Source: Lentimicrobium sp. (GTDB taxonomy: Bacteria; Bacteroidota; Bacteroidia; Bacteroidales; Lentimicrobiaceae). From it: 60,487 nucleotides of DNA. Made by a program: the position numbers and the translations under genes. The notes under the pieces are model-generated. The model was given only the letters and a program-made list of their open reading frames with translations. It was not told the origin of the DNA and did no database searches. The stretch covers positions 1 to 60,487 of the forward strand of contig JAHYJC010000028.1 in NCBI GenBank assembly GCA_019429275.1, given 5' to 3'. Each line of letters begins with the position of its first letter. Position 1 is the stretch's first letter. Shown here piece after piece: positions 40,608 through 51,513 of the stretch.

Positions 40608-41786
40608 ATGAATAAGAAAAACAAACCTGATGCATCGGGCCGCCGTAATTTCTTTAAACTGGCTGCTGCCGGAAGCCTGGGTGCAATCCTCGCTCCGTCA
40701 CCACTAAAAACCGTTCTGTCGCAGGTTCAGGACACTGATAAACCGTCCACCAATATTGCCGATGCATTGAAATTTCCAAAAACTGAGACATCCATGCCCG
40801 GGAAATTTCCTGGCAAGGTAGTGAAAGTTTATAATCCGGGCTCTGTTGAGGATGATAAACCGGTAAAACCTGTGGCCTACAAAATGCTTTCAAATGCCAT
40901 GCTGAAACTGACAGGTGCTGAATCACTTTCTGAAGCCTGGCTGATGTTTGTGCAGCCACATGAGAAAATCGGGCTGAAACTGAACCCCATAGGCGGCAAA
41001 CTGCTGTCAACCAGTCATGAGGTGGTGCAAAGTGTGATTGACCAATTGTTGGAAGCGGGCATTCCGAAAGAGAACCTTGTGCTTTTCGACCGCAGGGAGT
41101 TTCAGTTGCACGAAGCTGGTTTTACTGCTGAAGCCTATCCAGATATCGGAATAACCGGCACCGAAAAAAAGGATGCCGACGGTTCATATTACGGCAAGGA
41201 TGGAAAATTGTACAGCGAGGAGATGATTGACAGGGATTGGTATTATTTTGCCGATGTAGATGGAGAATATGACGATTATACAATACCGTATATGGTAAAC
41301 GGGGGCAAGTATTCTTATTTTACGAAAATCTGCACACAGCAACTTGATAAAATAATCAATATTCCTTTACTGAAAAATGCAGGAGCATCCATTACATTGT
41401 GCCTTAAAAATCTGGGTTATGGTGTAATATCAAATACCGGCCGGCTGCATGCTCAACTCTGGGGTGATACCAGCGCCGAAGTATGCTGTTTCCCTCCGGT
41501 GCGCGATAAGGTTGTGCTGAACATTGCCGATGGACTCCGTGGTTGCTTTCAGGGCGGGCCTGGCGCCAATCCACAGTTTATCTGCAACTATAACACTGTT
41601 TTGGTTGGAACTGATCCTGTGGCTGTTGACCGCATTGGCTATGATATTGTGCTCGCAAAACGCATTGACGAAGGCATACAGCAGGAAGATTCTCCCCGCG
41701 GCCGGCAGTTTATGGAATATGCAGCTCAACTTGGGTTGGGTGAAGCCGATATAACAAAGATCAACCTGATCGAAATGAACAGCTAA
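40608..41786 (+). CDS. Tat-exported DUF362 domain protein
   Basis: The N-terminus SGRRNFFKLAAAGSLGAIL is a twin-arginine signal, so the 392-residue product folds in the cytoplasm, probably with a cofactor, before export. The body matches the DUF362 family: KIGLKLNPIGGKLLSTS, VQSVIDQLLEAGIP, LVLFDRREFQL, IINIPLLKNAGASITLCLKN (split), GAN-type VLVGTDPVAVDRIG. Some DUF362 proteins contain iron-sulfur clusters, but no ferredoxin-like Cys cluster is visible here. A DUF6599 gene follows 56 bp later. Confidence 0.82.
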   Translation: MNKKNKPDASGRRNFFKLAAAGSLGAILAPSPLKTVLSQVQDTDKPSTNIADALKFPKTETSMPGKFPGKVVKVYNPGSVEDDKPVKPVAYKMLSNAMLKLTGAESLSEAWLMFVQPHEKIGLKLNPIGGKLLSTSHEVVQSVIDQLLEAGIPKENLVLFDRREFQLHEAGFTAEAYPDIGITGTEKKDADGSYYGKDGKLYSEEMIDRDWYYFADVDGEYDDYTIPYMVNGGKYSYFTKICTQQLDKIINIPLLKNAGASITLCLKNLGYGVISNTGRLHAQLWGDTSAEVCCFPPVRDKVVLNIADGLRGCFQGGPGANPQFICNYNTVLVGTDPVAVDRIGYDIVLAKRIDEGIQQEDSPRGRQFMEYAAQLGLGEADITKINLIEMNS

Positions 41787-41842
41787 CAGAAAGGCTTTAT
41801 ACTTATTGATTTAATAACTCCTTATACTTTGAAATATTCCGG

Positions 41843-42664
41843 ATGAACAAAATATTCACCCTGATTATCCTTGTCTGTGCGATGAATATCGCAGCACAGG
41901 AAACCTTTGTGTTTGACGAAGGCAGTGTGCCGGATATAAATTCCCTGAACTCCAGGTTCTTCGACCATGACGGACTTTGGGGTTACATTAATGGTGGCGC
42001 CGACCTTTACCTGGAGTATGGTTTTGAGCAGATTACTGTGTTAGATGTTAAAGCCAATGGCCTTGATTATAAGGCTGATATCTATAAAATGACTTCGCCC
42101 GAAGCTGCATTCGGCATTTTCAGCATCTCCCGATACAAATGCAGGGATTCAGGCGTGCTGTGCGAAAATGATTGCGCCACGCCTTATCAATACATTGCCG
42201 CCAAAGGAACTTATTACCTCTCGGTTTCAAATTCAACCGGTTCACTGGAGCACCAGGAAATTATTCTTAAAATTGCCAGAGAAATCCTTGCGCAGATACC
42301 CATTGAAAAAGTAACCGTTCCTTCCATTTTCAGCCATGAGCTATTGTCAGATAATTCAGGCAGTCTCAAGCTGATAACCGGACCCCTTGGGATGCAAAAT
42401 GGTTTTGTCCGCTGGGATAGGTTGTTTACCGGTTTCACCAACTATACCGTCTGGATTTTGCCGGTAAAACAAGATGACACAAATTACACTGTTTCACTGG
42501 TGTCATTTAAGAATAATGAGGATGAGGTTTCTTTCCTGAAGAAAAATGAGCTTCAATTGAAAAATGCTTCAATTTTGTTTCCAAACAGAGATGGCGGTTT
42601 TTTCCTTTTCGAAGGAAATGTTCCTGATAATCTGCTGAATATGATACAGAACGGCGGTTACTGA
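41843..42664 (+). CDS. DUF6599 family exported protein
   Basis: A signal peptide (MNKIFTLIILVCAMNIAAQE) precedes a 254-residue domain with WGYINGGADLYLEYGF, EAAFGIFSISRY and the C-terminal FLKKNELQLKNASILF. These blocks match the DUF6599 family, whose genes often occur beside DUF362 genes. Function is unknown. The pair 40608-42664 is probably one operon producing two partner proteins outside the cytoplasm. Confidence 0.72.
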   Translation: MNKIFTLIILVCAMNIAAQETFVFDEGSVPDINSLNSRFFDHDGLWGYINGGADLYLEYGFEQITVLDVKANGLDYKADIYKMTSPEAAFGIFSISRYKCRDSGVLCENDCATPYQYIAAKGTYYLSVSNSTGSLEHQEIILKIAREILAQIPIEKVTVPSIFSHELLSDNSGSLKLITGPLGMQNGFVRWDRLFTGFTNYTVWILPVKQDDTNYTVSLVSFKNNEDEVSFLKKNELQLKNASILFPNRDGGFFLFEGNVPDNLLNMIQNGGY

Positions 42665-43184
42665 AAGGGTACAATAGATCCTGTAAAGATTAATTCAACC
42701 TTGCCAACTGGTTGAATCACTGTGCTGAATTCACATCTCCTTATTTTTTTTGTTTCATTGTCTGAATGCCCTGACTATTAAAAGTAAGCGTTCAATCTAA
42801 AATATTTTTTAAGTTACATCGGTCACGATGCTGCTGTTCGGCTGTCAATTTTCCTGATTTTGGAATAAATCATACTAAAAAATATTTTGTATATTGTTGA
42901 AAAACAGATATATAAAAAGTCATTGTAAATAAAATCAACAGGTGTTTAAAAAATATACAATCAGCCTAACAAACAGAATATCAATAATATATAAAATAAT
43001 TCTAAAATAAGTGTATAAAAAATCAACACATTCGATTGTATATAAAATAAACAAAAACTTTATAACAAATTGAATATCAATAGGATAAAAGGTTAAAAAC
43101 TCCTTTGGCACACTTGTTGCCTATGGGTATGCGTAACTAAGAAACTTCGGAATAAAATACTTAAACAATATAAACTTAACCACC
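42665..43184 (+). promoter_or_regulatory. Very AT-rich 520-bp control region of the redox operon
   Basis: The region upstream of 43185 is strongly AT-rich and contains recurring words. GAATATCAATA occurs at 42976-42986 and 43072-43082. ATATAAAATAA occurs twice (within 42988-43050), with further TATAAAA variants near 42910 and 43015. The spacing, 30-210 bp upstream of a sigma-54 promoter, is where enhancer-binding activator sites are expected. The words are candidates for the binding site of the NtrC-type regulator encoded at 49560, or bendable DNA. Confidence 0.45.
43106..43120 (+). promoter_or_regulatory. Sigma-54 (RpoN) promoter
   Basis: TGGCAC (43106-43111), five bases (ACTTG) and TTGC (43117-43120) match the sigma-54 consensus TGGCAC-N5-TTGC exactly, with GG at -24 and GC at -12. 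The first gene of the operon starts 64 bp after it. The operon region also encodes a sigma-54 activator, which supports the call. Confidence 0.88.
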
Positions 43185-44816
43185 ATGAAAACAAGATTCT
43201 TTTTAAGCGCAATGCTTCTGTTTGTTTTTGGGTTTTCAACCTATATCAAAGCAGAAAACGAAGCCAGTCAAAAGCTTACTGTAGCAGCAACACCCGGATT
43301 TGAGGCTTTGCTCTCAGGCTGGGAAGCTGCTTACAACAGCTCAAATCCGGAAAGTCCGGTCATTACCGCCGAACAGTCAAAAGCAGGTTTATGGGTTACA
43401 GGTTCAGAATATCTAAGCCAAAATCCGGAATTAAACAAGAAATCGGTGATTGTTGGACGCAATGTTATTGTTCCGGTCTTTAACTCAAACCACCCTTATG
43501 CTGATCTGATAAATCAGCAAGGTGTGACTCCTTCATCACTTTCAAATCTGTTTCAGAGCGGTGAAATCATGAACTGGTCAGTACTTACAGGCAATAAAAC
43601 TGCCGGTAAAATTAAACTGGTTGTGATGAATGATCCTTCCATGCTTAGGCAGATTGAAATTTTCCTTAAATGCAAAATCGACATGGATAGAGTTACGGTT
43701 TGCGCTACCGAAAGTGATTTCCGCACTTTGATTTCCAGCGATGTTTTAGCACTTGGGTTTGTGAATTTGCCGGTTGTCCTCAATGAAAATGAAGCTGCAT
43801 TTGCTAAAAATTTCAGTATACTTCCTATCGATCGCGACGAAAATGGCCGTATAGATCCTATGGAAAATTTTTATCAGGATGCCGAAACTTTCACAAGATC
43901 GGTTTGGATCGGAAAATATCCTCAAACACTCATCAACAGTATTTCAATTGCTTCGGCATCTGCTTCTCTGAGCCCAGATCAGGCCGCCTTTATCAACTGG
44001 GTACTCAGCCAGGGACAAAATCAATTGGTAATCAATGGATTTACTGAACTTTCAGGACCAGAACGCCAGGCTAACCTTTCAAAACTTAGTCAGCCTTTAA
44101 TCATAACAGAAGTTACTGACACTTTCTCTGCAAAACTTATTATGTTGCTTATGATTATTGGTGGTATTGCAATAATTGGACTTTTAGTTACCTGGTTATT
44201 CAGTACAGGTATCAAAGATGCCAAACCACTTGCAAACAGACAAGTATCCGGGGTTTTTAATGAGGGCAGTCTTGCAATTCCAAAAGGACTTTTATTTGAC
44301 AAAACCCACACCTGGGCTATTATGGAAGCCAATGGAAGCATTAAAGTGGGATTAGATGATTTTATTCAGCAACTTACCGGGATTGGAACAAAAATTTCGG
44401 CAATGGAACTGGGCGAAAAAGTTACTAAAGGCGACCGTCTGATAACTATTTTGAGTGAAGGAAAACAAATGTCGCTCAGGTCACCCATATCTGGTATTAT
44501 AAAGGCAAAAAATCCTGATGTTGAACAAGGCATTACACCGGGTTCACTTGTCGAAAACTGGATTTACAAGATAGAACCAGCCAACTGGAAACGTGATTCT
44601 CAGTTTATGTTCAGGGCCGACCAATATAAAGAATGGCTGAAGGGAGAATTTACCAGACTTCGCGACTTCCTTGCCAGCACAATGAATGCACATGCACCTC
44701 AATACGCACACATAACCCTTCAGGATGGCGGTGAGCTTAAAGAAGGCCTGTTGACTGAGCTCGGACCCGAGGTATGGGAAGACTTTCAGAATGGCTTCCT
44801 TGATTCAGTAAGATAA
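43185..44816 (+). CDS. Membrane protein: PstS-like binding domain fused to GcvH/lipoyl-like domain
   Basis: A signal peptide (to about residue 23) is followed by a periplasmic PstS-like solute-binding domain (about 24-310; VIVGRNVIVPVFNSNHPYA, then SSLSNLFQSGEIMNWSVL). One membrane helix (about 316-340) leads to a GcvH-like domain (about 365-470; FDKTHTWAIME, VGLDDFIQQLTG, LRSPISGII). By the positive-inside rule the last part is cytoplasmic. Lys427 lies in the lipoyl loop but one residue away from the canonical spacing; Gly426 takes that place. The C-terminal segment holds LQDGGEL and EVWEDFQNGFL, shared with the protein at 46989. It is the first gene after the sigma-54 promoter. I infer a ligand- or redox-linked scaffold of a membrane complex. 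Confidence 0.8.
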   Translation: MKTRFFLSAMLLFVFGFSTYIKAENEASQKLTVAATPGFEALLSGWEAAYNSSNPESPVITAEQSKAGLWVTGSEYLSQNPELNKKSVIVGRNVIVPVFNSNHPYADLINQQGVTPSSLSNLFQSGEIMNWSVLTGNKTAGKIKLVVMNDPSMLRQIEIFLKCKIDMDRVTVCATESDFRTLISSDVLALGFVNLPVVLNENEAAFAKNFSILPIDRDENGRIDPMENFYQDAETFTRSVWIGKYPQTLINSISIASASASLSPDQAAFINWVLSQGQNQLVINGFTELSGPERQANLSKLSQPLIITEVTDTFSAKLIMLLMIIGGIAIIGLLVTWLFSTGIKDAKPLANRQVSGVFNEGSLAIPKGLLFDKTHTWAIMEANGSIKVGLDDFIQQLTGIGTKISAMELGEKVTKGDRLITILSEGKQMSLRSPISGIIKAKNPDVEQGITPGSLVENWIYKIEPANWKRDSQFMFRADQYKEWLKGEFTRLRDFLASTMNAHAPQYAHITLQDGGELKEGLLTELGPEVWEDFQNGFLDSVR

Positions 44817-44870
44817 TCACAGAAAAATTTTCAATCAAACCTAAACCTTTCACTCTACTAACTAACTCCT

Positions 44871-45740
44871 ATGATTATCAATCGACGAAATTTTTTCAAG
44901 GCGATGGGAGCAACTGCGGTTGCCCTTTCGATAGGCAAAGAGGCTTCAGCATCTGCCGGTGAAATTTTGCAAAACGATGACGAACTCAACGGTATGTTGT
45001 ACGACAATACCAAATGTATCGCTTGTCATGGTTGCGAATACGATTGTGCCGAGGCACATGGTCTTGAGTATCCCGATATTCCGGAAAATCCTCCGATACG
45101 AAAGACCAACGAAGCACAACTCACTGTTGTCAACACCTATGAAACCTCGAAAGGGCCAATGCATGTCAAAGTTCAGTGTATGCATTGCAACCAGCCGGCC
45201 TGCGATGCTGCCTGCCTCACCCAGGCAATGCATAAAATGGAAGATGGCCCGGTTGTCTGGCGCGAAGACAAATGCATGGGGTGCCGCTATTGTATGATAT
45301 CATGCCCCTTCGACATTCCGAAATTTGAGTATCAGAGCACCAATCCAAGGATCATGAAGTGCGATTTGTGTTATGAAAGGCAGAAGGAGGGCGAAATGCC
45401 AGCCTGTGCCTATAACTGTCCTCAGGAAGCCCTGTTGTTTGGAAAACGAAGAGACCTGATTAAAGAAGCAAGAAAAAGAATACACGAAGAGCCAGAAAAA
45501 TACATCGATTATATTTATGGCGAATACGAAGCAGGTGGAACCTCATGGATGTACCTTTCGGGTGCACCGTTTGAAGAACTGGGATTCAAAACCAATATCC
45601 AGAAATCTTCATACCCCGGCCTTACCAAAGGGTTTATTTCGAGCATAGCTCCGGTCGATATATTATTGCCTGCTGCATTGCTGGGTATTTATGAAGCAAC
45701 AAAATCCCGGACCAATCATTCAACCGAAGAAGAGGAATAG
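44871..45740 (+). CDS. Tat-exported ferredoxin-like subunit with four [4Fe-4S] clusters (HybA/DsrO type)
   Basis: The twin-arginine signal INRRNFFKAMGATAVAL directs the folded 289-residue protein to the periplasm. Four Cys groups are present: CIACHGCEYDC (about 48-58), CMHCNQPACDAAC (about 103-115), CMGCRYCMISC (about 132-142), and CDLC with CAYNC (about 162-185). Each can bind one [4Fe-4S] cluster, giving an electron wire. The C-terminal block GGTSWMYLSGAPFEELGF and the hydrophobic end (PVDILLPAALLGIYEA) resemble HybA. It lies 3 bp before the NrfD-like gene and so likely passes electrons between that membrane protein and a periplasmic partner not encoded here. Confidence 0.92.
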   Translation: MIINRRNFFKAMGATAVALSIGKEASASAGEILQNDDELNGMLYDNTKCIACHGCEYDCAEAHGLEYPDIPENPPIRKTNEAQLTVVNTYETSKGPMHVKVQCMHCNQPACDAACLTQAMHKMEDGPVVWREDKCMGCRYCMISCPFDIPKFEYQSTNPRIMKCDLCYERQKEGEMPACAYNCPQEALLFGKRRDLIKEARKRIHEEPEKYIDYIYGEYEAGGTSWMYLSGAPFEELGFKTNIQKSSYPGLTKGFISSIAPVDILLPAALLGIYEATKSRTNHSTEEEE

Positions 45741-45742
45741 CC

Positions 45743-46969
45743 ATGGACAAAACACAAATCGTATATACAGATAATAAGGACAATAAATTCTGGAAATTTA
45801 TCCTGAATGAACTGAAACCCAAAGGAAAGATATTCACTCTTTTCAACATTATCAGTTTTCCGGTGATGGTATTGGGAATCATAATCATTTACATCCGTTT
45901 CAGGGATGGCATAGGTGCTGTAACCAACCTGAACCAGGAAATTCCCTGGGGATTGTGGATTGGTTTTGATGTGGTTACCGGTGTTGCATTTGCTGGAGGG
46001 GCGTATATTCTGGTATTCATGGTCAACATTCTGAACATGAAACAGTACAAACCCATCTTACGTGTAACGGTACTCAACGGATTCCTGGCCTATCTTTTTT
46101 ATTCGGCAGCCCTTTTGCTCGACCTTGGCCGTCCGCTAAAGGTCATCAACGTTATCATTGGAAACAATTTCGGTGTCAGCTCAGTACTGTTTCTTGTCGG
46201 ATGGCACTTTTTACTCTATATGCTCGCACTTTTGCTTGAGTTTTCGCCGGCAATTGCGGAGTGGCTCAATGCCAGAAAGCTAAGGAAAGTGCTGACAGGT
46301 ATAAGTCTGGGAGCCGTTATTTTCGGAATCACCCTCTCGGTTCTTCATCAATCCGGAATCGGAGCCTTGTACCTTATGGCCGTCGATAAAATTCATCCGC
46401 TGTGGTATAGCAATTACCTGCCCCTGCAATTTGTGGTGGCCAGTGTATTTGCAGGTATTTCGATGGTAATTTTAGAAGGGTCAATCAGCCATAAAGTTTT
46501 CTCCTATCAGTTGGAAAAAGACGCGCATCATCAGCACAATAAAATACTCACCGGTTTATCCAAAATCTGTGCAGGAGCCTTATTCGCCTACTTTTCGCTA
46601 ATGGTTATTGTTTTTGTGCATGGTAAAGACTGGAAATATATGAACTCAGGATGGGGTTCGTGGTACCTATTCGAAATGATTGGATTTGTAATACTTCCTA
46701 TGATACTTTTCTATTTCAGCTACAGGCACAAAAATATGATTCTGATTCGTGTGGCTGCGGTGCTTACACTGTTGGGAGTTATCCTGAACAGAATGAATAT
46801 ATCAATTATAGTCTACCGCTGGATGGATGTCGAAAGATATGTACCCACCTGGCAGGAGTTTGTGGTAACCTTCACCATCATTTTCATTGAAGTGTGGGTT
46901 TTCCGCTGGATTATTACCAGAATGCCCGTTCTTCGGAAATCTCCGGAATGGGTTCGTGGAGATCATTAA
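45743..46969 (+). CDS. NrfD/HybB-like integral membrane quinone-interacting subunit
   Basis: The 408-residue protein has about ten membrane helices and the NrfD/HybB pattern: IPWGLWIGFDVVTGVAFAGG, LLLDLGRPLKVINVI, WHFLLYMLALLLEFSPAI, and HQSGIGALYLMAVDKIHPLWYS (read in parts). Such proteins exchange electrons between quinone and a periplasmic iron-sulfur subunit, some with proton translocation. It pairs with the HybA-like gene as in hydrogenase-2, Dsr and Act complexes, but no hydrogenase, molybdopterin or cytochrome subunit is encoded nearby. The GcvH-like gene follows 19 bp later. Confidence 0.92.
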   Translation: MDKTQIVYTDNKDNKFWKFILNELKPKGKIFTLFNIISFPVMVLGIIIIYIRFRDGIGAVTNLNQEIPWGLWIGFDVVTGVAFAGGAYILVFMVNILNMKQYKPILRVTVLNGFLAYLFYSAALLLDLGRPLKVINVIIGNNFGVSSVLFLVGWHFLLYMLALLLEFSPAIAEWLNARKLRKVLTGISLGAVIFGITLSVLHQSGIGALYLMAVDKIHPLWYSNYLPLQFVVASVFAGISMVILEGSISHKVFSYQLEKDAHHQHNKILTGLSKICAGALFAYFSLMVIVFVHGKDWKYMNSGWGSWYLFEMIGFVILPMILFYFSYRHKNMILIRVAAVLTLLGVILNRMNISIIVYRWMDVERYVPTWQEFVVTFTIIFIEVWVFRWIITRMPVLRKSPEWVRGDH

Positions 46970-46988
46970 CCTAAAAACATCATAAAAA

Positions 46989-47705
46989 ATGGACACATTT
47001 CATTATTACAACATGTTCGAAACCAAGGGAATCGAATATCTGATTACCATTGTATTTTTCCTGCTGCTTATCCCTTTCTGGATCATCCTTAATAACCGTG
47101 AAAAAGTAGTCAAAGGCATTCAATATGCACTGGGCGTTCTCTCATTGAGTAAAATCAGAATACCACAGGGTATTTATTACTGTCCCGATCACACCTGGAC
47201 CTACCTTCGCAAGACCGGAGCAGCCCGCATAGGCGTTGACGATTTACTAACCAGCATTACCGGAAAGCTCATGCTTGAGCCTGTTGTAAATGAGGGTGCC
47301 GAAGTTAAAAAAGGAGATCCCATTGCAAAAATCATTCAGGATAAAAAGCAACTGACCGTGCATTCTCCATTAACTGGCACAATAAAGCTGTCAAATCATC
47401 AGATTATGGAAAATCCTGATTTGATATTGAGTGATCCTTATGGACAGGGCTGGATGTTTGAAATTAAACCACAGTCGTGGAAGTCCGAAACAAGTGGTTA
47501 TTACCTGGCAGATGAAGCTGTAAAATGGACCTCGGACGAAATCGTACGCTTTAAGGATTTTCTTGCGCAATCACTTCAGAAACATAACGACACGCCATCA
47601 CTGCTTGCGTTGCAGGATGGGGGTGAACTCCGCAAACACCTGCTTGCCGATCTGCCTAATGAAGTGTGGATTGATTTTCAGCATGATTTTTTGAAAACTT
47701 CCTGA
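46989..47705 (+). CDS. Membrane-anchored GcvH/lipoyl-like protein
   Basis: The 238-residue protein has one N-terminal helix (about 17-35, IEYLITIVFFLLLIPFWIIL) with positive charges after it, so the rest is cytoplasmic. Residues about 60-165 resemble glycine cleavage H protein: CPDHTWTYLR, RIGVDDLLTSITGK, VHSPLTGTI, and DPYGQGWMFEIKPQSW. Lys119 in QDKKQL stands at the canonical lipoyl-lysine distance from the SP of HSPLTG. The C-terminal LQDGGEL and EVWIDFQHDFL are shared with the protein at 43185. No glycine cleavage partners (GcvT, GcvP) are near. It may carry lipoate as a redox arm next to the NrfD subunit. Confidence 0.85.
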   Translation: MDTFHYYNMFETKGIEYLITIVFFLLLIPFWIILNNREKVVKGIQYALGVLSLSKIRIPQGIYYCPDHTWTYLRKTGAARIGVDDLLTSITGKLMLEPVVNEGAEVKKGDPIAKIIQDKKQLTVHSPLTGTIKLSNHQIMENPDLILSDPYGQGWMFEIKPQSWKSETSGYYLADEAVKWTSDEIVRFKDFLAQSLQKHNDTPSLLALQDGGELRKHLLADLPNEVWIDFQHDFLKTS

Positions 47706-47809
47706 GCAGAAGGCAAAGCGCGCTGAAATGGCTTGTCACAGGGGCTGTAAATGTGCTTAAAAAATAAAGCTCCGGACGTTTTACTAAATCTGCCCGTACC
47801 AATTAGAAT

Positions 47810-47846
47810 CAGCCGCAAAAGTCTTAACTTAGCGGCTGGTTTTTTA
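47810..47846 (+). terminator. Rho-independent terminator between the redox operon and the sensor kinase gene
   Basis: CAGCCGC and GCGGCTG form a 7-bp GC-rich stem; the loop can extend it through AAGT/ACTT. Seven T residues follow. It separates the four structural genes from the regulatory genes and lies within the first codons of a longer kinase frame, so it argues for the later kinase start at 47871. Confidence 0.78.
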
Positions 47847-47870
47847 ATTTCATTCCATATTCTCAGCGAG

Positions 47871-49556
47871 ATGAATACAACAGATGGATCAAATAAGTTA
47901 AAGTCATCGGGGAGATTCCGGACACTGGTAAACAAGTATCTGCGCTTTCATTCATCAATTTATAGCCGTGTACTAATTATGATAGCCCTTATGGCGGTGA
48001 TGTTATTTGTCTCATTCAGCATCATTTTCCGATCGGTAAACGATCAATATCTGAATGCCATCATTCACCAGAATGGCAACAACATCAGTTCCATCGTTGA
48101 AGGGGCGCTGTATCATTCAATGCTCCGAAACGATAAAACCGCGTTATACAATACCCTCGATATTATCAATTCGCTGAGTGGTATCGATGAGGTAAACCTT
48201 TACAACGATTTTGATACCCTGGTTTACTCTTCGTTTTCTGCAGATGCCACACATTTCAATGAGCCAAACTGCATAAAGTGTCATGAATCGTTGGATGCAC
48301 TTTTTCCGGGTAATGCCCGGACTTATCGTATTGTTGATGTAAACAGCGCCTGCAGCATGTACAATGAGCAGAATAAAAACCGATACCTTTTGATCCGCAA
48401 CCCTATACTGAATGAACGATCATGTTATACCAGCAGTTGCCATGCTCACGGCGAAGGTGAAGACATTCTTGGGTCATTGATCATAAAGATGCCACTTGCT
48501 GAATTCGATGCGGCAGTCACCAAATCTTCATCAAAATATTTCTCATTTGCTGTACTGGCTACTTTTTTACTTTCTGCCATTCTGGTTTTATTTACCCGAA
48601 GGAACATTAAAAAACCTCTGAATGAACTGGTTGAAGCCAGCGTTTCTGTTGCCAGAGGCGACAAAGATAAACGTTTGATCATCAGGCCAAGACAACTTGA
48701 TGATATGCGAATTGTCTCCATCGCGTTCAACGAAATGCTTGATAAACTTAAATCGGCCAATATTGAACTCGAAAACTGGTCGAGGCAACTCGAACATAAG
48801 GTACAGAAAAAGTCGGAAGAACTCAGCTCGGTTCAGAATGAACTGATCCAGATTGAAAGGATAGCCTCACTGGGGAAACTGTCGGCTTCGGTCGCCCACG
48901 AACTTAATAATCCTTTGTCGGGCATATTGGTGTATGCTAAACTCATTCAGAAACAGCTCAATAGTCCCACGCTAGATGATGCCAAAAAAGATTCGGTGAT
49001 GAAACATCTGCGGCTGATTGAGACAGAAACCAAGCGTTGTGGCGACATTGTAAAAGGTTTGCTCGATTTTTCGCGCAAGGATCAAACCGATTTTGAGCCC
49101 TGCCACATCAACGAAATCCTTAAAGAGACTTATGACCTGGTGCATCATCAGATGAAAATTTCCAACATCGGGTTTCTGATAAACTTTGAAGCTACAGCCG
49201 ATATGATCTCCTGCAGTCCAAACCAAATCAAACAGGCCTGCCTGGCCATGCTGGTCAACGCATCGGAAGCAGTACCTGAAAATGGCGAAGTCATCATTAA
49301 AACCCATAATCCCGACGAAAAGCACATCGTCGTCGAAATAATTGACAATGGAAAGGGGATTTCGGAAGAGAACCTTCCGCACATATTTGAGCCCTTCTTT
49401 TCGACCAAGCACGAGGCATCGGGCATCGGACTTGGCCTGGCTATCGTACATGGCATTGTTCAAAGCCATAAAGGGCAGCTTTCAGTAGCTTCACAACCAG
49501 GAAAAGGAACAACATTTTCAATTACATTACCACTCACCGGAATAAAAAATCTTTAA
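47871..49556 (+). CDS. Sensor histidine kinase with c-type heme-binding motifs in the sensor domain
   Basis: With the start at ATG 47871 the protein has 561 aa: helix (about 34-53), a periplasmic sensor (54-220), a second helix (about 224-242), HAMP, coiled coil, HisKA with SVAHELNNPLSG (His343) and HATPase_c (NASEAV, DNGKGIS, GIGLGLAIVHG), NtrB style. The sensor contains CIKCH (Cys134-His138), a CxxCH c-heme site, and CYTSSCH (Cys185-His191), a CX4CH variant. This points to redox, oxygen or NO sensing by covalently bound heme. An in-frame ATG 40 codons earlier is less likely, because a terminator lies in that stretch. The response regulator follows 3 bp later. Confidence 0.88.
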   Translation: MNTTDGSNKLKSSGRFRTLVNKYLRFHSSIYSRVLIMIALMAVMLFVSFSIIFRSVNDQYLNAIIHQNGNNISSIVEGALYHSMLRNDKTALYNTLDIINSLSGIDEVNLYNDFDTLVYSSFSADATHFNEPNCIKCHESLDALFPGNARTYRIVDVNSACSMYNEQNKNRYLLIRNPILNERSCYTSSCHAHGEGEDILGSLIIKMPLAEFDAAVTKSSSKYFSFAVLATFLLSAILVLFTRRNIKKPLNELVEASVSVARGDKDKRLIIRPRQLDDMRIVSIAFNEMLDKLKSANIELENWSRQLEHKVQKKSEELSSVQNELIQIERIASLGKLSASVAHELNNPLSGILVYAKLIQKQLNSPTLDDAKKDSVMKHLRLIETETKRCGDIVKGLLDFSRKDQTDFEPCHINEILKETYDLVHHQMKISNIGFLINFEATADMISCSPNQIKQACLAMLVNASEAVPENGEVIIKTHNPDEKHIVVEIIDNGKGISEENLPHIFEPFFSTKHEASGIGLGLAIVHGIVQSHKGQLSVASQPGKGTTFSITLPLTGIKNL

Positions 49557-49559
49557 AAA

Positions 49560-50906
49560 ATGGCAAAGAAAATATCAATGCTCATCGTAGATGACGAGGA
49601 ATCGGTCAGAGATTCTCTGTACAACTGGTTCATCGAAGACGGATATGATGTGCAGTCGGCAGAAAATGCAAAAACTGCACTTAACATGATAGAAAACAAG
49701 GCATACGATATTGTTCTGGCCGATATCAAAATGCCCGGCATGGATGGTTTGGAAATGTTAAAACGCATAAAATCAATCAAATCCGATTCGGTAGTTATTA
49801 TAATGACTGCTTTCGCCACGGTAGATACAGCTGTTCAGGCGCTCAAAGATGGTGCTTTTGATTATGTTACCAAGCCATTTGATCCTGATGATTTGTCACA
49901 TCTTATCCGCAATGCTACAAAACAGATTGTACTGGCAAATGAAAATGAAAATCTAAGGAGCCGTATTGTAACGCTTGAACATGTCGAAGACCTGATCGGC
50001 AACAGCGCACCCATGCAGGCTGTGCTTAAAGAAGTGGAAAGGGTTGCGGTTTCCAATGCTTCGGTAATCATAACAGGAGAAAGTGGTACAGGTAAAGAAC
50101 TAATTGCCAGGGCTATACATGCAAATTCTCCGCGAAGATTTTTCTCAATGGTGAGTGTTCATTGTGGTGCATTATCCGAAAGTTTGCTCGAAAGCGAACT
50201 GTTTGGCCACGAAAAGGGAGCTTTTACCGGTGCTGTGTATAACCGCAAGGGCCGTTTTGAAATGGCCGATAGCGGAACCATTTTCCTTGATGAAATTGCA
50301 ACTATTTCGCAAAAAATGCAAATTGAACTCCTTCGTGTACTCGAAAGTAAAAGCTTTACCCGGGTTGGAGGGAACAAACAAATTTCATCGGACTTCAGGG
50401 TGATATGCGCCACCAACAAAGACCTCAAAAAAATGGTCGACCTGGGCACTTTCCGTGAAGATCTTTATTACAGGCTGAATGTAGTTAATATTCTTATTCC
50501 GCCTTTGCGTGAGCGCAGAGAAGATATACCCATTCTGGTAGATTATTTTATCCGTAAGTATTGCAATGCCATGAGCCGAAACCTCATGACTATTGAACCA
50601 GCCGCTTTACGAAAGCTTCAGGAATTTGATTTTCCGGGCAATGTACGAGAACTCGAAAATATGATTGAACGGGCCATTGTTGTTGGTAACGGCAAAGAAA
50701 TCAAGGTAAAGGATCTGCCGCTCAGCGGAGTGGCTCAGGCTACTCCCAGCTCGGTTGAAAGCCTCGATGATCTTGAAAAGAAACACATACAGATTATTCT
50801 TGACAAGTATAACTGGAACATTTCCAGGGCATCGAAAGCACTTCAGGTTGACAGGGTTACGCTCTATAACAAGATAAAGAAATTCGATCTTAAACAACCC
50901 AATTGA
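49560..50906 (+). CDS. NtrC-type sigma-54-dependent response regulator
   Basis: The 448-residue protein has a receiver domain with phospho-acceptor Asp55 (VLADIKMPGMDG), a AAA+ domain with Walker A GESGTGKE (173-180), the sigma-54 contact loop GAFTGA (220-225) and Walker B TIFLDEIA, and a Fis-type HTH (NISRASKALQVDRVTLYNKI). It activates RNA polymerase with sigma-54. The only clear sigma-54 promoter in the window is at 43106, so the redox operon is its likely target. It is coupled to the kinase gene with a 3-bp gap. Confidence 0.95.
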   Translation: MAKKISMLIVDDEESVRDSLYNWFIEDGYDVQSAENAKTALNMIENKAYDIVLADIKMPGMDGLEMLKRIKSIKSDSVVIIMTAFATVDTAVQALKDGAFDYVTKPFDPDDLSHLIRNATKQIVLANENENLRSRIVTLEHVEDLIGNSAPMQAVLKEVERVAVSNASVIITGESGTGKELIARAIHANSPRRFFSMVSVHCGALSESLLESELFGHEKGAFTGAVYNRKGRFEMADSGTIFLDEIATISQKMQIELLRVLESKSFTRVGGNKQISSDFRVICATNKDLKKMVDLGTFREDLYYRLNVVNILIPPLRERREDIPILVDYFIRKYCNAMSRNLMTIEPAALRKLQEFDFPGNVRELENMIERAIVVGNGKEIKVKDLPLSGVAQATPSSVESLDDLEKKHIQIILDKYNWNISRASKALQVDRVTLYNKIKKFDLKQPN

Positions 50907-50964
50907 CCAGAAAATCATCTATCTTTTTTTTCTGAAACCCTGACTGCCAATCAACCCAAGGTAA

Positions 50965-51513
50965 ATGAGTCTGCCCTCAGTACAACTTATCGCAATAGGT
51001 AACCCCGAGATTAAAATACTGGGGGAGCTATCGAAAATTGTAGGGCACGAATTCGCAGTTCCGGTTAATCTCAGAACTATTTACATGGATCTGAATCCTT
51101 ATTTTGATCCAACGCGCAAGCAATATAACGGCAATGTCTTGCTCAGGGAAATAGATCTGAATTTTGGAAACGACGATACAAAAACCATAGGTTTGTTTGC
51201 TGTTGATTTGTTTATTCCCATTCTTACCTATATATTTGGACAGGCCTACCTGAATGGCAGGAGTGGCATAGCTTCGGCTTACCGACTCAGGAACGAAAGG
51301 TATGGCCTGCCCGGCGATGATGAGGTACTGAAACAAAGATTCAGCAAGGAAATCATTCATGAACTGGGCCACGCTTATGGGCTGATCCATTGCCACACAC
51401 CCCGCTGTGTGATGCAGTCGAGTACCTATGTTGAAGATATCGATCAGAAAAAGACTGCTTTGTGTAATGATTGCCGCGAAAAGCTGGGATTGGTAACGAT
51501 TAAACCGGGGTGA
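50965..51513 (+). CDS. amzA: Archaemetzincin-type zinc metalloprotease
   Basis: The 182-residue protein contains the full archaemetzincin signature HExxHxxGxxHCx4CxM...CxxC: His132, Glu133, His136, His142, Cys143, Cys148, Met150, and Cys167 and Cys170. The three His bind catalytic zinc and the four Cys bind a structural zinc. There is no signal peptide, so it is cytoplasmic. It begins 58 bp after the regulator gene, in the same direction. The natural substrate of bacterial archaemetzincins is not known. Co-location with the redox module may be chance or operon membership. Confidence 0.93.
   Translation: MSLPSVQLIAIGNPEIKILGELSKIVGHEFAVPVNLRTIYMDLNPYFDPTRKQYNGNVLLREIDLNFGNDDTKTIGLFAVDLFIPILTYIFGQAYLNGRSGIASAYRLRNERYGLPGDDEVLKQRFSKEIIHELGHAYGLIHCHTPRCVMQSSTYVEDIDQKKTALCNDCREKLGLVTIKPG

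Follow-up and report, generated by a model that had tools for sequence, protein, structure and literature searches.

We report that a 60,487-nucleotide stretch of Lentimicrobium sp. DNA (contig JAHYJC010000028.1, referred to here at its full length as the window) carries a recurrent unit of seven genes on the forward strand, 43185-51513, that combines an Fe-S protein and an NrfD-family membrane subunit with two GcvH-like proteins, a two-component system and an archaemetzincin, and that includes no catalytic subunit. Our preferred explanation, to which we give about an even chance, is that the unit encodes an inducible, menaquinone-reactive complex for electron transfer between quinone and the periplasm, placed under its own two-component system. 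Complexes of the NrfD type have a central place in anaerobic respiration and, to our knowledge, each of those named in the abstract of a review devoted to them (PMC8076601) works with an enzyme or a cytochrome. An NrfD module that recurs with no such partner, carries GcvH-like subunits missing the lipoyl lysine and brings its own control would represent a quinone device of a new kind, spread over several phyla, and would give the H-protein fold a new role. The conserved array of dyads at the unit makes the proposal directly testable, as it predicts an inducible operon, a regulator and the sites at which this regulator binds.

The features of the unit and its control region are collected in Table 1. 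Domains were called by Pfam and NCBIfam profile searches, with bit scores compared to the family cut-offs, and the membrane topology of the proteins was read off their sequences and is given as predicted. A first-pass annotation of the window had described a PstS-like/GcvH-like fusion, an Fe-S protein, an NrfD/HybB-like protein and a second GcvH-like protein, under sigma-54 control, followed by their own two-component system and without a catalytic subunit. The six open reading frames that it listed were found where it had placed them, the first four genes were confirmed by position and by Pfam and NCBIfam, and its account of the control system and of the missing catalytic subunit was borne out by the results below. 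The extent it gave, 43106-50906, was correct in the placement of these genes but too short at both ends, as the unit continues to the archaemetzincin gene and the dyads lie further upstream.

The second GcvH-like protein (GcvH2) was searched against 296 Bacteroidota genomes, 20 regions were fetched and related clusters were found. Further loci came from an NrfD-alignment scan of named genome contigs and comprise the best 80 of at least 475 that were confirmed; the 28 of these 80 with window-like GcvH2 or fusion genes form the close group. The gene order, whose uniqueness to this genome would have refuted the first-pass annotation, recurs: with all seven genes it is complete in 21 of the 28 close loci, and the other seven all reach a contig end within the unit (one of these, L081, also has no archaemetzincin gene beside the regulator). 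Since the order recurs in other genomes, it is not a product of chance. No gene beyond the unit was found in more than four of the 28 loci (flanks of up to 9 kb, many shorter), and hence the absence of a catalytic subunit is a conserved trait. Within the order to which the window belongs, an NrfD match at E ≤ 1e-20 was obtained in 16 of 149 genomes, the window genome included, and of two other genomes of the same genus shown, one has a match and the other has none; the distribution is therefore patchy.

The Fe-S protein matches Fer4_11 in Pfam and has HmcB as its best NCBIfam match (315 bits against a cut-off of 420). Its 16 cysteines are the number required by four [4Fe-4S] clusters. The Tat signal scores 17.9 bits, under the cut-off of 22.7, and twin arginines are present in the N-termini of all six Fe-S proteins rechecked in named loci. 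The membrane subunit matches the NrfD family (PF03916, 55.5 bits against a cut-off of 25.8), with HmcC as the best NCBIfam match (377 against 550). In an alignment with two QrcD proteins, residues D70, Y110, D120, S138 and Y150 of QrcD (numbered as in N. vulgaris, with a constant offset of 8 in the mapping) correspond to D76, Y117, D127, S147 and Y159 of the window protein, and all five are identical in 17 of 17 module NrfD proteins, namely that of the window and those of 16 fetched relatives. In a study of the Qrc complex, QrcC Y113 and QrcD S138, D70, Y110 and Y150 are given as essential (PMC13059093). Because the probed QrcD residues are kept throughout, the Fe-S/NrfD pair is likely to be competent for menaquinone. 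The quinone-linked membrane redox module of the first-pass annotation thus gains support from the NrfD profile and the QrcD residues.

The promoter and dyads of the control region are consistent with such a module being inducible. Four 17-bp dyads at 42924-43053, upstream of a sigma-54 promoter, form a putative activator array, and the sigma-54 element begins 69 bp past dyad 4, with the start codon following 79 bp later; an RpoN gene is present in the genome. With sites scoring at least 9/12 and no rule on spacing, a four-site layout was found in the window and in L062, L064, L066, L072 and L080. A template drawn from these six loci fits the window and 22 of 22 testable close relatives, each with a summed score above the best of 20 equally free shuffles. 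Three or more dyads are clustered in 20 of the 28 close loci, 9 of 72 other loci and none of 100 shuffled loci, and nine of the ten dyad clusters in other loci lie directly upstream of the first GcvH-like gene. The fourth dyad scores weakly in several relatives. Weighted scans of the relatives return the form TGGCAT-N5-TTGA for the promoter, and 35 and 50 of 200 shuffles did at least as well as the best sigma-54 sites of L062 and L069, respectively.

Within the genome, the exact pair formed by dyads 1 and 2 is unique to this operon, as is that formed by dyads 3 and 4; when two mismatches are permitted, the first pair is found at one other place (reversed control, one) and the second at five (control, one). 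A stricter single-dyad form has 12 sites in the genome, three at the operon and nine elsewhere, against seven in the reversed control. Among those nine there is no cluster of three, and the sole sigma-54-like site nearby, in L204, is in the wrong orientation. A wider regulon in the window genome was accordingly rejected, as neither the pair nor the single-dyad searches disclosed a second array. As no array other than the operon's own was found, the circuit probably has the redox complex as its output. Across the whole genome, sigma-54-type sites with no more than one mismatch number 299 against 86 in the reversed control, which points to wide use of sigma-54.

The candidate sensor of this circuit is a HAMP-HisKA-HATPase kinase (Pfam), which probably starts near 47871 and not at 47751, to judge from the lengths of its relatives. 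Its heme c motifs, of the CxxCH and Cx4CH types, are invariant across 14 aligned kinases and would make it a putative heme-binding sensor. Among 42 kinases of named loci, CxxCH is present in 41 and an exact Cx4CH in 39; of the three exceptions to the latter, two show Cx5CH or Cx3CH instead, and the third lacks both motifs. The regulator has the Response_reg, Sigma54_activat and HTH_8 domains (Pfam) and is a sigma-54 dependent response regulator, with a receiver, an AAA+ domain containing GAFTGA and a Fis-type helix-turn-helix. The seventh gene, 3' of the regulator and adjoining it in 22 of the 28 close loci, encodes an archaemetzincin. The motif HEXXHXXGXXHC-X4-CXM-X17-CXXC is matched by the window protein and by those of 30 of 35 loci, with a last spacer of 16 residues in place of the 17 given in the abstract of a published description (PMC3427221). 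Of the five misses, three are cut by a contig end and two (L080 and L117) have Asn in place of Gly.

The remaining components are the two GcvH-like proteins. GCV_H was called in the fusion at 46.5 bits (cut-off 22.2) and in GcvH2 at 70.7 bits, also above the cut-off. The PstS-like part of the fusion scores under the cut-off for PBP_like_2 (21.1 against 27 bits); an alignment profile matches one phosphate-binding protein (E 9e-9), and a Foldseek search of the PDB with a structure model of the fusion (mean pLDDT 73.6, pTM 0.51) returned phosphate-binding proteins first and also H-proteins at TMt 0.70-0.73. On the strength of this model a PstS-type fold is assigned to the fusion. The PstS-like domain contains a canonical EF-hand calcium loop, DRDENGRIDPME, at fusion residues 216-227 (43830-43865), and a loop of the EF-hand type is matched in 21 of 21 aligned fusions. 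The PstS-like part is present in 22 of the 25 first GcvH-like genes of the close group, absent in L063 and L080, and cut in L076.

The first-pass annotation had proposed that electrons might pass through a cytoplasmic dihydrolipoyl-type arm, and this part of it was not supported. With the true GcvH of the window genome, itself carrying Lys at the lipoyl position, as the register, the window fusion has Gly there. In the close group the canonical lysine is found in none of 25 fusions and none of 27 GcvH2 proteins (0/52); of 65 other aligned GcvH-like proteins, 2 have it and 2 are gapped at the site, and among the 18 first GcvH-like proteins examined from the fetched L035-L054 set a single one carries it. 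As the canonical lysine is almost never at the lipoyl position, a lipoyl arm cannot be the general mechanism. A gap-free motif check agreed: in the close group all 23 scored fusions and 22 of the 25 scored GcvH2 proteins have their lysine at the next residue (two of each unscored), where other groups often have an Arg (14 of 65 unscored). By analogy with E2 lipoyl domains, a one-residue shift of the lysine would be expected to block lipoylation. By profile, and for the fusion also by model, the proteins have the GcvH domain; at family level they lack the lipoyl lysine of glycine cleavage H proteins.

A different use of the domain is suggested by sister clusters, in which Pfam identifies proteins with both Response_reg and GCV_H (two in L049, one each in L105 and L107). 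Among the receiver-GcvH proteins inspected, the Asp motif is intact in 13 of 14 and the KPF motif in 14 of 14; those of L048, L049 and L051 are near a cytochrome with 13 CxxCH motifs. The receiver fusion ties the GcvH-like domain to a phosphorelay, and hints that it serves as an adaptor or in control.

In the mechanism that we favour, the NrfD protein would hold a quinone site at the periplasmic face of the membrane, and the Tat-exported Fe-S protein would move electrons between this site and a redox partner in the periplasm whose gene lies elsewhere, most likely a soluble or multiheme cytochrome, so that the two would act as QrcC and QrcD do. Both GcvH-like domains would be docking or control subunits on the cytoplasmic side and not lipoyl carriers. 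Through its heme motifs the kinase would sense either a ligand or the redox state, and it would phosphorylate the NtrC-type regulator, which would bind the four dyads and fire the sigma-54 promoter of its own operon, and the archaemetzincin may adjust or turn over part of the circuit.

A number of observations weigh against this explanation. No periplasmic partner is conserved beside the close group, and the electron acceptor is therefore a guess. The RRxF motif is absent in 2 of 27 close-group Fe-S proteins, and none of the 16 Fe-S proteins inspected in the L035-L054 set has an export signal before the Fe-S domain (that of L039 has a long extension and is less clear), so that a single topology does not fit all; with the same NrfD residues, the Fe-S protein of this set may face the cytoplasm and form a possible second topology class. 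The GcvH2 of the window retains the canonical lipoyl lysine, as an exception to its close group. In the control region, the layout template permits only gaps of 18-19, 69-70 and 24-25 bp. The best sigma-54-like site follows dyad 4 by 67-70 bp in 15 of 22 relatives, 58-59 bp in five and 55-56 bp in two, in a search confined to 40-100 bp and made without a shuffle control. In 16 of the 22, TTGA stands at the -12 element, and a strict sigma-54 scan matches only one of them. The stricter dyad form catches three of the four dyads of the operon itself, and other targets could thus be missed. Binding of the dyads by the operon's own regulator is inferred from their co-occurrence.

Another explanation shares most of these components. 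The NrfD/Fe-S pair might couple the menaquinone pool to the kinase hemes, with the GcvH-like domains transmitting or tuning the signal, and the output would be regulation and not respiration. Such a quinone-linked redox sensor is a real but lesser possibility. It would account for the kinase being the only recurrent gene of the close group with c-type heme motifs, which lie in its predicted sensor region, for the kinase, regulator and protease being the recurrent partners, and for the fusion of GcvH-like domains to receivers in sister clusters, mostly with an intact Asp motif. It is less easily reconciled with the sole promoter array found in the genome being that of the operon, and with the 13-CxxCH cytochromes of several sister versions, which are typical of electron transport. 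We rank the electron-transfer complex over a pure sensor, since the redox operon is the only target found and an effector fits this better. A broader and more speculative proposal, which we consider rather unlikely, is that GcvH-like domains without lipoate have become adaptors linked to a phosphorelay, which bind NrfD-type quinone complexes from the cytoplasmic side and gate them, tethered to the membrane here and fused to receivers in sister clusters; with the kinase, regulator and quinone pair they would form one device that reads and sets the quinone redox state.

It is improbable that the unit is an orphan electron-input module of a known oxidoreductase, with the catalytic subunit encoded at another place in each genome. 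The nearest named families, HmcB/HmcC and HybA/HybB, normally serve a partner, which speaks for it; however, the NCBIfam equivalog cut-offs are missed and the same neighbours recur with no catalytic gene. A hydrogenase partner in particular was discarded, as [NiFe] hydrogenase (PF00374) has no match in the window genome, which is 96% complete. Least probable is a true lipoyl arm, in which a lipoylated GcvH-like domain would take electrons from a cytoplasmic dihydrolipoyl-type carrier and feed them to quinone. The canonical lysine of the window GcvH2 and the lysine one residue later in the close group could be read in its favour, but the lysine counts, the frequent Arg in the wider family and the lack of any gene outside the unit in more than four of the 28 loci all oppose it.

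Returning to the electron-transfer complex, one close parallel is QrcABCD, the menaquinone reductase of sulfate reducers, which likewise has an Fe-S protein and an NrfD-family subunit with the five QrcD residues. The unit differs in having no QrcA or QrcB gene and in adding GcvH-like proteins, kinase, regulator and protease, and its NrfD protein scores 71.9 bits against the QrcD equivalog cut-off of 570. The Hmc complex of Desulfovibrio (HmcABCDEF) provides the best named matches, both under their cut-offs, but no multiheme HmcA was found among the window open reading frames. HybA/HybB of [NiFe] hydrogenase 2 are the same family pair and match at 218 and 224 bits, under cut-offs of 263 and 450. 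By sequence and model, the window proteins share the GcvH domain with the glycine cleavage H protein and with LbpA, which is described in PMC10332631 as lipoylated and essential in the sHdr system; they differ in being membrane-anchored, with a C-terminal extension and a lipoyl lysine that is not conserved. In architecture the kinase and regulator resemble the sigma-54 two-component systems of the ZraSR, AtoSC and NtrC type; unlike these, the sensor region has CxxCH and Cx4CH motifs and the pair is encoded together with a redox operon and an array of four dyads.

In the open-licence PMC literature, no paper was found on GcvH together with NrfD, nor on the glycine cleavage system H protein with NrfD and a response regulator, in agreement with the first-pass annotation, which knew of no described complex with this composition. 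A word search of the main text of a review of NrfD complexes (PMC8076601) returned no mention of GcvH, glycine cleavage or kinase. One paper in this literature that contains NrfD, kinase, sigma-54 and heme deals with the neighbourhoods of hydrogenase and succinate dehydrogenase.

Table 1. Positions in the window of the dyads, promoter and genes of the unit
Feature	Position	Strand	Remarks
Dyad 1, TGTAAATAAAATCAACA	42924..42940		10/12 match to TGTTGA-N5-TCAACA
Dyad 2, TGTTTAAAAAATATACA	42943..42959		Starts 19 bp after the start of dyad 1; 9/12 match
Dyad 3, TGTATAAAAAATCAACA	43012..43028		69 bp after dyad 2; 10/12 match
Dyad 4, TGTATATAAAATAAACA	43037..43053		25 bp after dyad 3; 9/12 match
Sigma-54 -24/-12 promoter, TGGCAC-N5-TTGC	43106..43120	+	10/10 match; reached by 0/200 shuffles
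PstS-like/GcvH-like fusion	43185..44816	+	543 aa; PstS-like periplasmic domain (with EF-hand loop), one membrane helix and GcvH-like domain, predicted cytoplasmic
HmcB/HybA-like Fe-S protein	44871..45740	+	16 Cys; Tat-type start
HmcC/HybB-like NrfD-family membrane subunit	45743..46969	+	Predicted quinone-reactive (profiles and QrcD residues)
Membrane-anchored GcvH-like protein (GcvH2)	46989..47705	+	238 aa
Histidine kinase	47871..49556	+	CxxCH and Cx4CH heme c motifs in sensor region; reading frame opens at 47751
NtrC-type sigma-54 activating response regulator	49560..50906	+	Receiver Asp motif, Walker A and GAFTGA present
Archaemetzincin (peptidase M54)	50965..51513	+	Metal-site motif; last spacer 16 residues

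Genes for a DUF362 protein and a DUF6599 protein lie directly upstream on the same strand (40608-42664); they were rejected as parts of the unit, as neither recurs beside it in the 28 close loci. Beyond the close group, variants with a GcvH-like protein that has a Cys-rich N-terminus were found in Syntrophaceae, Deltaproteobacteria, Gemmatimonadota, Acidobacteriota, Phycisphaerales and others, and the Cys motif is kept in 10 of 11 such proteins. In L035 (5536-6402) and its relatives the N-terminal motif reads CIWM..GV..YKLCDR.F.C..C, a possible metal site, and Pfam labels the GCV_H part of the CIWM-type proteins alone or nothing at all. Several sister clusters contain cytochromes with 4-5 or 13 CxxCH motifs, and receiver-GcvH fusions near cytochromes with 13 or 5 such motifs were seen in L048, L049, L051, L092, L107 and L108. 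L050 (at 9955) and L052 have clusters of the order GcvH-GcvH-FeS-NrfD with no kinase or regulator within the fetched region, and L050 retains a dyad cluster before its first gene.

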